A stretch of 63,438 nt of DNA, from assembly GCF_000520555.1 (NCBI RefSeq), contig NZ_KI914852.1, forward strand, positions 54,750-118,187, in the 5' to 3' direction. The notes below the pieces were generated by a model that made no database searches, was not told where the DNA came from, and saw only the letters and a list, made by a program, of their open reading frames with translations. This DNA comes from Arthrobacter sp. Br18. Lineage in GTDB: Bacteria; Actinomycetota; Actinomycetes; Actinomycetales; Micrococcaceae. The translations under genes and the position numbers were made by a program. Positions 42,701-46,679 of this stretch are shown here, in pieces. Positions within the stretch are counted from its first letter, which is position 1, and every line of letters begins with the position of its first letter.

Positions 42701-43666
42701 CTACATGCTGCTGCGGGATCCACCCTTGATGGCCAGTTCCGGGTGGCAGGTCCTCGCGAAAAGACCCAGGGCGGCTTCCTCACGGGGCACGAATCCCAGG
42801 CGGTTCAGCGTCATATGGGCGTGATGCACGGTGAGGTGCTGTGCGGTTCTGCTGACCCGCGCCTTCTCCGCCCGGTGCAGGTAGGTGTCAAGGCACCGGA
42901 ACCAGCGGCGCCGCCAGTTCCGGACCTCCGACTCGGACGCCGTCGCGGCCATCCGGGCGTGAAAGCCGGTGGCCTTGGCTGCCACCTGCCGCGTCATTGC
43001 TTCGCGGACGGCGTCGGCCCGCGGGCCGACGTCGGTGGTACACGTCCGGAGGTGCAGATCCCAGTAGAGGTCCCAGGTGATCCTGCGCCGCTCGGGCCGT
43101 CCTGCCGCATGCGGACCATGCATCAGACTGTGGGCCGAGTCGAAAAGGATCAGGGCTCCGAGGGCTGAGCGGCTCTGCATCTTGACGAAGCGCTGGCCGG
43201 CCCACAGGGACAGCTCCGAACTCAGCTCGAACACCTCCTCCGCGAGGTCGAGACCCACAGCACCGCCGTACTTGACCAGATTGGCTTCGAGGTGCGCGTC
43301 GACGACGCCGAGCCCAGGGATGAAACTGTCGCCGACGGCGCTTGAGTAGTGCTGGTGGACCAGAAGCTGCGGGAAGGCGAGGGCGCTCTGTTCCTGGAGC
43401 GGCCGGTTGAGGGCCCTGAGGCGTTCAAGAATGCGCGGGTGGGCCTGGATATGCAGGTTCACCTGCGCCCTCCGGGCCTGGTCCTCATCCCTCGTGAAGT
43501 ACCAGCGTTTCGCTCCAAGCGCCTCGGCCTGCGCCACCAGAGGGGTAACCAGCGCTCCAACGATGCCGTCCGCTACATCGAAGCCACCCGGAGAAAGCGT
43601 GAGGTGCCACCATTGAGTGCCTGCAACGGTTCGTGAGGCGGTTCGAACCGCTGTCAGCTGACTCAT
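42701..43666 (-). CDS. Lantibiotic dehydratase C-domain / thiopeptide-type protein
   Basis: This 321-residue protein resembles the stand-alone C-terminal domain of LanB dehydratases (PF14028, thiopeptide-type). Visible landmarks are WWHLTLSPGGFDVADGIVGA, AKRWYFTRDEDQARRAQVNL, then HIQAHPRILERLRAL, and ANLVKYGGAVGLDLAEEVFE. The domain performs glutamate elimination in LanB proteins or, in thiopeptide systems, a [4+2] pyridine-forming reaction. The glutamylating N-domain (PF04738) is not encoded anywhere in the window. It lies 101 bases after a 46-residue secreted-peptide gene on the same strand, and diverges from a two-HTH regulator. A RiPP role is inferred from this context and not from chemistry seen here. 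Confidence 0.7.
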   Translation of the reverse strand: MSQLTAVRTASRTVAGTQWWHLTLSPGGFDVADGIVGALVTPLVAQAEALGAKRWYFTRDEDQARRAQVNLHIQAHPRILERLRALNRPLQEQSALAFPQLLVHQHYSSAVGDSFIPGLGVVDAHLEANLVKYGGAVGLDLAEEVFELSSELSLWAGQRFVKMQSRSALGALILFDSAHSLMHGPHAAGRPERRRITWDLYWDLHLRTCTTDVGPRADAVREAMTRQVAAKATGFHARMAATASESEVRNWRRRWFRCLDTYLHRAEKARVSRTAQHLTVHHAHMTLNRLGFVPREEAALGLFARTCHPELAIKGGSRSSM

Positions 43667-43694
43667 GGCCCTCTTCTTCAGGGTTAGTGGTTAC

Positions 43695-43708
43695 CCCGCT
43701 GGGGCGGG
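43695..43708 (-). terminator. Weak hairpin between the peptide gene and the LanB-like gene
   Basis: CCCGC (43695-43699) and GCGGG (43704-43708) form a five-bp hairpin with a four-base loop. Partial termination here would favour the precursor over the enzyme, as in many RiPP operons. It is short and unproven. Confidence 0.3.
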
Positions 43709-43767: not shown

Positions 43768-43908
43768 CTACTTCGGCCAGTCCCAGCTACTCGCCGATAT
43801 CGATCCGCTGTACCGGCCCGGATCGTCAGCGGAAGGGCCGGAGGTGGCTCCTCCTGCCGTTCCAACCAGAATGAGGAGCCCGGCCGCTGCACCGATAATC
43901 TTCTTCAT
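43768..43908 (-). CDS. Secreted small peptide, candidate RiPP precursor or signal (46 aa)
   Basis: This gene is short. The frame opens at ATG 43908, with AAAGGGAA ending six bases upstream, and stops at 43768. The N-terminus (MKKIIGAAAGLLILVG) is a classic signal peptide with a small-residue cleavage zone (TAGGATSG). The tail is rich in Ser, Gly, Asp and Trp and ends in ISASSWDWPK. It has no cysteine. It is the first clear gene upstream of the LanB-like gene and divergent from the regulator at 44345. It may be modified, or act as an exported peptide signal sensed by the regulator. Both ideas are inference. Confidence 0.6.
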   Translation of the reverse strand: MKKIIGAAAGLLILVGTAGGATSGPSADDPGRYSGSISASSWDWPK

Positions 43909-43920
43909 GGTGTTTCCCTT

Positions 43921-44199
43921 TCACGATCCGGCAGCCTGCAGAAGAAGGGGCTGCACGTACAACTCCTGCGGCCTGCCCGTCGACCGCGTGCTGCTGATCC
44001 GGTTTCCCAAGAATGGCTGGCGCCTTGAGGCAGTGTCCAGATGCAGGGCCGCCATGTTCAGGACATGGCCTGAACCGGACTCCCGCCCGAACGGGATGAC
44101 CGGCACCACCAGCGAAAACCACCCGAAGCGCGCGGTATTCCGCGCAGTCCCGGGGAACTGGGCACGGAGCACTGCGCGAGGATTGCCAATCGTCCACAT
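43921..44199 (-). other. Open frame upstream of the peptide gene, doubtful
   Basis: A 92-residue frame ends 12 bases before the peptide ATG on the same strand. Its third codon positions are about 80 percent G/C, and it contains a natural-looking GRESGSGHVLNMAALHLDTA stretch. But there is no Shine-Dalgarno (an in-frame TGA lies two codons upstream of its ATG), and I recognise no family. It could be a decayed gene or a long leader. The 435-bp region 43910-44344 otherwise holds the promoters of the divergent pair. Confidence 0.2.
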
Positions 44200-44200
44200 T

Positions 44201-44222
44201 TGTCATTAACTGGACATGTCAT
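44201..44222. promoter_or_regulatory. Direct repeat in the regulator/peptide intergenic region
   Basis: TGTCAT occurs at 44201-44206 and 44217-44222, 16 bases apart, within an AT-richer patch 123 bases before the regulator ATG. They may be half-sites for the adjacent regulator. No better promoter is evident. Confidence 0.35.
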
Positions 44223-44344
44223 GTTTTTCGCGTTCCATCACTGACGAACCCGCACCCTGCAGTACTGCGGCTGTCCGCCCGCAGGCCGCACCGGCGGGTG
44301 GCGGCTGACCGCCGGCGGCCCGACGGCAACAGGAGAACCCCCGA

Positions 44345-45310
44345 ATGGACCCCACGTCTCTGGAGCTCTACCGCTATGCCGTCGGCAACCCCGGCTGGAC
44401 ACGGTTGGCGGCGTCGGAAGCCCTCGGACTGACCATGCGCGACGTCGAAAGCGCCCTCGGCGCACTGATCGAGCGAAAGCTCGTCAGTCCCCAGGCCTCC
44501 GGCGGCGGGGCTTTCGTGGCAGTGTCCCCCGACGTCGCACTCGCCGATCTGGTGGACGCGGATGAGCGCGCCGTGCAGAACCTGAAAACGCGGATCAGTG
44601 CGCAGCGGCGCGAACTCTCGAGCCTTGTTCCGGCATTCCTGGAAGCCCGGAAACACGTGGTCTCCAGTACCTCGGTGGAAACACTCGAGGACCCGCACCT
44701 CATCCACCGGGTACTCATCGACTACGGACGTGACGTAACGGACAGGGTGTACATCGCGCAACCCGGCCAGGGGTCGACCGCGGATGTCCACGAGGAAAGC
44801 GTGCGCAAGGACCTCGACCTTCTTGAGCGCGGCGTGAAGCGCAGGACACTCTACGATGTCAGCACGCGCGACCACGTTCCCACCCGGAAGGCGGTCGCGG
44901 CGATCCAGCAGGGCGGAGGTGAGTTCGGGGCTCTTCCCTTCATCCCCCTGCGCATTCTGATCTTCGACGAAAAACTTGCGCTGGTGGGCCGACAATCGAC
45001 GCGCGAGGACAAGGCGGCGCTCGTCATCCGCGACCGGAGCCTGATCAACATCTTCACCCAGCTTTTCGAGGTTGCCTGGGAGTTGAGCGAACCCTTCCTC
45101 AGCCTGACACCGCACCACTCCCCGCTCACGAGCATGCAGCGCAGCATCCTGCAGGGGCTCTCCGCAGGCCTGCCCGACGAATCGATCGCCCGCCGGCTCG
45201 ACATCAGCGTCCGCACCTGCCGCCGCCATATCGCCTGGATGCTGGAAGCCCTGGGGGCTGAGAGCCGCTTCCAGGCCGGCGTCAAGGCCCGGAACGCGGG
45301 CTGGGTGTAG
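44345..45310 (+). CDS. TrmB/LuxR-type dual helix-turn-helix regulator
   Basis: This 321-residue protein has an N-terminal winged helix of TrmB type (LELYRYAVGNPGWTRLAASE, then ALGLTMRDVESALGALIERKLV), a central sensing region rich in Val/Ile, and a C-terminal LuxR HTH (TSMQRSILQGLSAGLPDESI, then ARRLDISVRTCRRHIAWMLE, then ALGAESRFQAGV). AGGAG lies nine bases before the ATG. It is divergent from the peptide gene and LanB-like gene and is the likely local regulator; a peptide or small-molecule ligand is possible but unknown. The order of two DNA-binding domains with a central sensor is characteristic of regulators near actinobacterial natural-product genes. Confidence 0.85.
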   Translation: MDPTSLELYRYAVGNPGWTRLAASEALGLTMRDVESALGALIERKLVSPQASGGGAFVAVSPDVALADLVDADERAVQNLKTRISAQRRELSSLVPAFLEARKHVVSSTSVETLEDPHLIHRVLIDYGRDVTDRVYIAQPGQGSTADVHEESVRKDLDLLERGVKRRTLYDVSTRDHVPTRKAVAAIQQGGGEFGALPFIPLRILIFDEKLALVGRQSTREDKAALVIRDRSLINIFTQLFEVAWELSEPFLSLTPHHSPLTSMQRSILQGLSAGLPDESIARRLDISVRTCRRHIAWMLEALGAESRFQAGVKARNAGWV

Positions 45311-45386: not shown

Positions 45387-46679
45387 GTGACTTCCGACAA
45401 CATGACCGAGGACCTCCTGCCCGCCGAGACCGAGGCTGCCCTTGAGCGGGCACTCGACGCCGGAGCCCGCCATGACGCGCTTTTCTCCAAGCGCGCCGCT
45501 AATATCAAGCAGTCGGCCGTCCGGGACGTCTTCGACATCTCGATCCGGCCGGGCCTTGTTTCCCTCGCAGGAGGCAGCCCCTACCTCAAGTCCCTCCCGA
45601 TGGAGGAACTGGGGCGCACAGCACAGAAGATCATCGCCGAGCACGGCCTCGAAGCGCTCCAGTACGGCGGGGGTCAGGGAATGGATGAGCTGCGCAGCCT
45701 GATCTGCGACGTCATGGCGGCGGAAGGTATCCCCGGGGCGGATCCGGCCGACATCGTCGTCACCACGGGCTCACAGTCCGCCCAGGACGTCGCGGCGAAG
45801 GTGTTCTGCAATCCGGGTGATGTCATCCTGTGCGAGGACCCCACCTACGTGGGCGCCCTCAACACCTTCGAGGCCTACGAGGTAGATGTCGTCACTATCC
45901 CGATGGACTCGGAGGGGCTGATCCCCGAGGAGCTCGAGCGCACCATTCTTGCCCTCAAGGCGCAGGGCCGATCGATCAAGCTGCTCTACACGATTCCCAG
46001 CTTCAACAACCCGAGCGGCATCACCCTGGCCGCAGACCGCCGCCAGCGCGTCGTCGACCTCTGCCGCGAGCACACCATCCTCGTGCTGGAAGACAACCCG
46101 TACGGCATGCTTCGCTTCGACGGCGAGCCCCTCGCACCCATGCGGGCCGACAACCCCGACGATGTCATCTACCTCGGCTCATTCTCGAAGATCTTCGCGC
46201 CTGGGGTGCGCCTGGGGTGGGCGCTGGTTCCACGTCATCTGTACCGGCGCTTCTACCTGGCATGCGAAGCAGTGGTGCTCTGCCCTTCCCCCCTGACACA
46301 GATGCTGGTGTCGGCATACCTCCGGGACTACGACTGGCTGGGGCACCTCGAGAACATGCGCGGCCTCTATCGGGAGCGCTGCGATGCGATGCTGGGTGCT
46401 CTCGCTGAGCAACTGCCGGACAGCGTGCACTGGACGAAACCCGACGGCGGCTTCTTTGTGTGGGTGACCCTCCCCGAGGGCATCGACACGTACCCCCTGC
46501 TCTATCAGGCGATCGACGCCGGCGTGGTCTTCATCCCCGGCGCGGCCTTCAGCCCCTCCGATGAAACCTCCAACAAGCTGCGCCTCGCCTTCAGTGCCGT
46601 CTCGCCGGAAGACATCGTCACGGGCGTGGCACGCCTCGCGCCGATCCTGCGCCGGGCGATCGCCGACGCGTCGGCGTAA
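45387..46679 (+). CDS. PLP-dependent class I aminotransferase (PatA/LysN-like)
   Basis: This is a 430-residue fold-type I aminotransferase without the GntR domain of MocR proteins. YGGGQGMDELRSLICDVM, TTGSQSAQDVAAKVFCNPGD, YTIPSFNNPSGITLA, VLEDNPYG and the PLP-binding Lys in YLGSFSKIFAPGVRLGW are visible. It matches the 2-aminoadipate/aromatic aminotransferase group. The GTG start follows TAGACT by six bases, indicating a leaderless mRNA. Two palindromes lie just upstream. The amino donor and 2-oxoacid are unknown. Confidence 0.9.
   Translation: MTSDNMTEDLLPAETEAALERALDAGARHDALFSKRAANIKQSAVRDVFDISIRPGLVSLAGGSPYLKSLPMEELGRTAQKIIAEHGLEALQYGGGQGMDELRSLICDVMAAEGIPGADPADIVVTTGSQSAQDVAAKVFCNPGDVILCEDPTYVGALNTFEAYEVDVVTIPMDSEGLIPEELERTILALKAQGRSIKLLYTIPSFNNPSGITLAADRRQRVVDLCREHTILVLEDNPYGMLRFDGEPLAPMRADNPDDVIYLGSFSKIFAPGVRLGWALVPRHLYRRFYLACEAVVLCPSPLTQMLVSAYLRDYDWLGHLENMRGLYRERCDAMLGALAEQLPDSVHWTKPDGGFFVWVTLPEGIDTYPLLYQAIDAGVVFIPGAAFSPSDETSNKLRLAFSAVSPEDIVTGVARLAPILRRAIADASA

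Follow-up and report, generated by a model that had tools for sequence, protein, structure and literature searches.

In a 63,438-nucleotide (nt) stretch of Arthrobacter sp. Br18 DNA (contig NZ_KI914852.1, positions 54,750 to 118,187; here called the window), we analyzed a three-gene locus that probably forms a cassette, conserved throughout several genera, by which a very short W-[D/E]-W peptide is produced and regulated. The peptide gene and the gene of a stand-alone PF14028 protein (hereafter, the enzyme) are neighbours in the same orientation, and a single-copy gene of a TrmB/LuxR-type regulator is divergent from them, with two operator-like repeats in between. The same parts recur in a fixed order and the W-[D/E]-W motif is under constraint. 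All three genes lie where an earlier reading of this DNA (the original prediction) had placed them, and its observation of a peptide frame was confirmed. The genes are as follows:

Positions 43768..43908, minus strand: precursor peptide gene of 46 codons, with a signal-peptide-like N-terminus and one C-terminal core, SSWDWPK, conserved in relatives.
Positions 42701..43666, minus strand: stand-alone PF14028 protein of 321 amino acids (aa), with the LanB elimination/pyridine-synthase fold according to profile and fold matches.
Positions 44345..45310, plus strand: divergent regulator of 321 aa, with an N-terminal winged helix-turn-helix (HTH), a PLD-like TrmB domain, and a C-terminal LuxR/NarL HTH.

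The 46-aa open reading frame (ORF) translates to MKKIIGAAAGLLILVGTAGGATSGPSADDPGRYSGSISASSWDWPK and its ATG is preceded by AAAGGGAAA. For the comparative analysis, 117 distinct places of the enzyme family were used, 73 of them with a divergent regulator. Each of these 73 loci holds a short ORF that combines a Shine-Dalgarno-like sequence, W/Y-x-W near its end, and a stop 50-170 nt before the enzyme gene, while such an ORF was present in 18 of 3650 first-order shuffles (0.5%) and on 0/73 opposite strands. The 50-170 nt window was chosen after the loci had been seen; without the distance condition, the shuffles gave 2.1% and the opposite strand 1/73. The peptide was also found in four orthologous loci lacking a regulator inside the fetched 4 kb, so that it was read in 77 loci in total, and not in each genome carrying enzyme and regulator. 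In two of these four (L190 and L191, of g32 genomes), the regulator gene is located about 9 kb from the peptide-enzyme pair. The original prediction had named the lack of a conserved small peptide next to homologous enzyme/regulator pairs as the observation that would speak against it, and the opposite was found. No credible peptide ORF was detected at the other 40 places (orphan paralogues, proteins of LanB clusters, and fragments); the [WYF].W frames upstream of orphans L058, L067, L068, L070, and L080 were judged by eye to be spurious, and a minigene search upstream of the orphan paralogues gave nothing consistent.

A gene this short, in a G+C-rich region with many spurious ORFs, might be a chance ORF or an annotation artefact; this explanation was ruled out by conservation, given the shuffle and opposite-strand controls, and we regard it as extremely improbable. 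Moreover, the 18-mer for W-[D/E]-W-P-K-stop has a single occurrence in 21 of the 22 genomes of the window's genus, and genome G285 is without it because its last core is altered (L019). Amongst the 273 other genomes of the family the 18-mer was found in one (G061); this occurrence, antisense to an open frame of 322 codons and in a genome with no enzyme match, was rejected.

The motif reads W-[D/E]-W in 70 of the 73 loci, with YDW, WGW, and WAW once each, and its codons vary synonymously. Judged by start motif, length, and hydropathy, 48 of the precursors are long and Sec-like, and these carry one (21 precursors), two (21), three (4), four (1), or six (1) cores. The remaining 25 include MKSWDWF, MTSKVWDWL, and MKKATAPVSIKSWEWF, and the translation products of the leaderless forms in genus g32 have 7-17 residues. 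The L102 precursor keeps three cores and apparently lacks the hydrophobic stretch. In the long forms, [AVST]-x-A precedes 61 of 85 cores, compared with 31% of positions in the same tails, which suggests that processing may occur there. Several cores (e.g., ...AAWDW) have no Ser, Thr, or Cys beside W-x-W, which is the sole common element; the Ser/Thr/Cys-rich core of a class I lanthipeptide or thiopeptide precursor was thus not found. As to the Ser/Gly/Trp-rich C-terminus proposed at the outset, Trp proved to be conserved, as W-[D/E]-W, and the Ser/Gly richness did not. An exported signal, also proposed, is possible, but 25/73 precursors fall outside the long signal-peptide type, so the cassette can do without Sec export.

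The RNA between the peptide and enzyme genes is structured (z -2.45), in agreement with the hairpin noticed originally, and a terminator scan of this gap found no terminator. It includes a small conserved element:

Positions 43694..43708, minus strand: stem-loop CCCGCCCCAGCGGGG, followed by TAACCAC, directly before the ribosome-binding site of the enzyme gene.

The stem-loop motif, followed by a GGTAACC-like sequence, occurs directly upstream of the ribosome-binding site of the enzyme gene in 49/73 regulator-bearing loci and in three of the four peptide loci without a nearby regulator, and was not found at the other 40 places. A Trp-rich ORF of as little as seven codons, upstream of a gene and followed by structured RNA, could also act in regulation, as a leader or arrest peptide by which enzyme expression is tuned, in the manner of Trp-rich attenuator peptides or exported arrest peptides. 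We consider this very unlikely, as 27 of the 48 exported forms carry several near-identical cores, unexpected for stalling, the distance from motif to stop varies (WDW-stop, WDWF-stop, WDWPK-stop), no terminator was found, and the enzyme is no Trp-metabolism gene product.

The enzyme belongs to PF14028 (Lant_dehydr_C) with 61.8 bits (gathering cut-off 24.4), which the fold match supports. Its score against TIGR03891 (thiopeptide-type bacteriocin biosynthesis) is 39.2 bits, below the cut-off of 48.45, and the label 'thiopeptide-type' that it had first received could not be upheld. Elimination residues were compared at NisB R786, R826, and H961 (MadB R822, R864, and H1005), the Arg positions being mapped by the MadB alignment and the residue list in an excerpt of PMC12241602, and the His position being deduced from the HM-x-x-NR motif. 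Of 73 full-length cassette enzymes, 70 retain the His that corresponds to NisB H961, whereas Arg occupies one Arg position in 32 (Lys in 7) and the other in 16 (Lys in 49; Lys is also found here in three LanB-cluster rows). The Glu-handling Arg positions are thus unconserved, and the full set of elimination residues of a class I lanthipeptide or split LanB enzyme is lacking.

No LanB glutamylation domain had been seen in the window, and a search for PF04738 extended this to the whole own genome, with limited sensitivity: of three control genomes expected to be positive, G005 scored above the cut-off, G022 below it, and G253 gave no match. The domain was likewise not found in 25 of the 26 other cassette genomes tested, and G256 has one on a different contig. 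The proposal of dehydro-amino-acid chemistry as the common reaction was not sustained, in view of the cores without Ser, Thr, or Cys by W-D-W and the unconserved Glu-handling Arg. The claim that the peptide is the substrate stands in a broader form: its recurrence beside the enzyme gene supports the role of a substrate or partner, and it would be natural for the PF14028 protein to bind or change it.

Instead of being an enzyme, the PF14028 protein could act here as a chaperone, immunity factor, or co-receptor, binding the W-[D/E]-W peptide and holding it in unmodified form. Genomes of g32 carry up to five further full-length PF14028 paralogues each, dispersed and without a credible peptide or adjoining regulator (L043-L084, e.g., L047:4001-4951), G223 carries PF14028 fragments besides full-length paralogues, and the catalytic His is kept in only 7 of 36 orphan paralogues. 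These mostly His-less, peptide-less orphans would fit a binder, as would the unconserved Arg positions, the search of the own genome that found no partner glutamylation domain, and a 7-residue precursor with almost no leader. The near-universal His of the cassette proteins goes beyond the apparent need of a pure binder, and we think such a role unlikely.

The regulator had been described as a divergent TrmB/LuxR protein with two HTHs, which was borne out: the C-terminal LuxR/GerE HTH scored 35.7 bits (gathering cut-off 23.5), and Regulator_TrmB of Pfam scored 14.1 bits for the single protein, below the cut-off of 22.2, while the family profile clearly matched archaeal TrmBL2 (E 1.6e-16, profile positions 6-252). 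The predicted model (predicted local distance difference test 86.7; predicted template modelling score 0.50, so the domain arrangement is uncertain) matches PLD-like folds, TrmBL2, and TrmB. Around distant regulator homologues outside the family, 0 of 29 fetched loci had an enzyme-profile match within 1.5 kb. Large-genome actinobacteria of genus g39 have several copies of distant TrmB/LuxR regulators (L154-L182), some of them near one another.

Between the divergent starts, two operator-like sites were distinguished:

Positions 44201..44218, minus strand: site 1, CATGTCCAGTTAATGACA, i.e., CATGTCC-AGTTAATGACA, with the imperfect dyad TGTC-N8-GACA.
Positions 44050..44067, minus strand: site 2, CATGTCCTGAACATGGCG, i.e., CATGTCC-TGAACATGGCG, 151 nt from site 1.

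CATGKCC occurs at least twice in 37/73 intergenic regions and at least once in 62/73 (shuffles, 0.9% and 13%, respectively). Amongst the 36 loci with exactly two copies, the spacing is 140-142 in 26, the others showing 118, 131, 143, 151, 152, or 215. A search of the own genome with up to two mismatches gave six matches, as many as a reversed-pattern control, and the exact ones are the two described here. A one-mismatch match inside an ABC transporter frame and three two-mismatch matches inside long open frames were rejected as targets. The operator-like sites look confined to the cassette locus, which argues against a wide regulon.

An enzyme relative (E ≤ 1e-5) was found in 64 of 295 genomes of the family and a regulator relative (E ≤ 1e-30) in 62, one in each, all 62 being among the 64; in G005 and G253, the two without such a regulator relative, the enzyme relatives are more distant and stand next to proteins of LanB size. 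Both genes are present in every sampled member of six genera (22/22, 23/23, 10/10, 2/2, 2/2, and 1/1), and 57 of 61 loci from named genome records are titled Arthrobacter. At E ≤ 1e-10, no enzyme relatives were found in 395 other genomes of the phylum sample, and none in viral contigs (one scan) or plasmids. A contig titled Vibrio cholerae strain 35D (L127) holds an Arthrobacter-type cassette with 65% enzyme identity and is probably a mislabelled or contaminated assembly.

In a tree of 112 enzymes, the g32 cassette enzymes with leaderless peptides cluster (support 87/88, not strong) and the orphan paralogues fall into groups of their own; some of the deep forks are weak and long branches were flagged. 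At L087 (386-6568), in a member of the family, a probable LanB-type cluster combines a PF14028 protein with a regulator 37% identical to that of the window, and this regulator context hints that the cassette may have descended from a lanthipeptide-like cluster.

Presence in whole genera favours a role in physiology or signalling. Antibiotic clusters are usually patchy in distribution, and such uniformity is unlike them. This is one reason why we hold it rather unlikely that the cassette yields no signal but a small natural product of ribosomal origin, be it antimicrobial, metal-binding, or other, whose production is governed by a cluster-specific regulator; another is that no exporter, immunity, or protease gene was recognised with it. 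The known role of the PF14028 fold in lanthipeptide and thiopeptide pathways, the confinement of the operator-like sites, and the L087 cluster would nevertheless suit such a product.

Among the neighbouring genes, an FMN reductase/TetR pair and a MocR-like aminotransferase were rejected as cassette parts, as they are not beside it in all genera. The latter, a pyridoxal 5'-phosphate aminotransferase (window positions 45387-46679) resembling the aminotransferase part of MocR/PdxR regulators, adjoins the cassette regulator in several genera.

We propose that the regulator binds the two CATGTCC repeats and controls both promoters, and that peptide and enzyme are transcribed together. The cytoplasmic PF14028 protein would then bind the W-[D/E]-W core and alter it, using the retained His as base, in a reaction that would do without a Glu-tRNA partner, such as the removal of a proton from a core residue in an epimerisation, isomerisation, or ring closure. 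Sec-type precursors would be exported and divided into pieces some 5-8 residues long, in many cases by cleavage at an [AVST]-x-A in front of the core, and in the leaderless forms the translation product would be near the final peptide. The resulting peptide would serve in physiology or signalling and might be read by the regulator.

Several points weigh against the proposed cassette and its mechanism. The 73 loci share descent and the genera are related, so the counts are not independent. CATGKCC is wholly absent from 11/73 intergenic regions, and sites apparently confined to one locus would be unusual in a quorum system whose regulon is broad. Export-based accounts are weakened by one large clade, and further cases elsewhere, in which the signal peptide is lacking. 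Next to the triad, whose neighbouring ORF families are mostly unannotated, no conserved exporter, protease, or second enzyme could be recognised. Finally, the orphan paralogues indicate that members of the PF14028 fold can persist without the presumed catalysis.

In comparison with known systems, the elimination domains of class I LanB enzymes (NisB, MibB, and MadB) differ in that here the search of the own genome found no glutamylation domain, the Arg positions are unconserved, and no common Ser, Thr, or Cys stands beside the substrate core. Likewise, unlike for the stand-alone [4+2] pyridine synthases TbtD/PbtD and TsrE/TsrL, no thiopeptide cluster was seen around, and the core has no common Ser, Thr, or Cys to become dehydroalanine. 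The excerpted text of PMC7268733 proposes that elimination-domain proteins standing alone in class I clusters may perform a modification different from elimination. Like the protein described here, they are extra elimination-domain proteins of undefined chemistry, but those clusters hold a full LanB, whereas none was found here and the precursors are tiny W-x-W peptides. According to an excerpt of PMC10075063, RRNPP quorum systems (Phr, SHP/Rgg) have a small propeptide, often of Sec type, with a C-terminal mature unit and internal duplications, and an adjoining regulator of 250-500 aa. The cassette is similar in its small propeptide, the duplications inside it, and an adjoining regulator of such a size, and may be so in the C-terminal mature unit and, for the 48 of 73 precursors that look Sec-like, in the Sec-type N-terminus. 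Its regulator, however, combines TrmB/PLD and LuxR HTH parts and is not the tetratricopeptide repeat (TPR) receptor of those systems; an extra PF14028 protein is present and the host is an actinobacterium. From TrmB/TrmBL2 the cassette regulator differs by its additional C-terminal LuxR HTH. The heptapeptide microcin C7 MccA also has a seven-codon precursor gene, with an adenylating enzyme as modifier there and a PF14028 protein here.

Among the matches listed when PMC full text was searched for the motif, stand-alone elimination domains, and TrmB/LuxR peptide systems, none dealt with the cassette (bioRxiv and most subscription papers were outside the scope), and the excerpted text of PMC9659744, on LuxR genes of Arthrobacter UMCV2, contains no mention of TrmB or thiopeptide. 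Tentatively, and with less confidence than for the cassette itself, the locus may represent a new class of system in actinobacteria, for peptide communication or for ribosomally synthesized and post-translationally modified peptides (RiPPs). In such a system, a protein with the LanB elimination domain, no longer tied to tRNA-dependent dehydration, would add a novel modification to a W-[D/E]-W core, precursors would range from Sec-exported multi-core to seven-codon leaderless forms, and a TrmB/LuxR one-component receptor would read the product. The product of the cassette might be a signal, but also a small product of another kind or a peptide in bound form.

The three-gene unit, whose PF14028 protein is a shortened relative of an antibiotic-making enzyme, points to an undescribed kind of peptide product or signal in Arthrobacter-type soil bacteria. 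With a gene of down to seven codons, under the reach of ordinary annotation, similar systems may be missed. If the proposal is true, stand-alone LanB elimination domains would gain, for their reaction outside LanB clusters, a minimal testable substrate, a heptapeptide; the precursors would form a natural RiPP-like series with and without leader and signal peptide around the same core; and Actinomycetota would acquire a candidate peptide signal that is encoded by a gene and has a receptor of non-TPR type.
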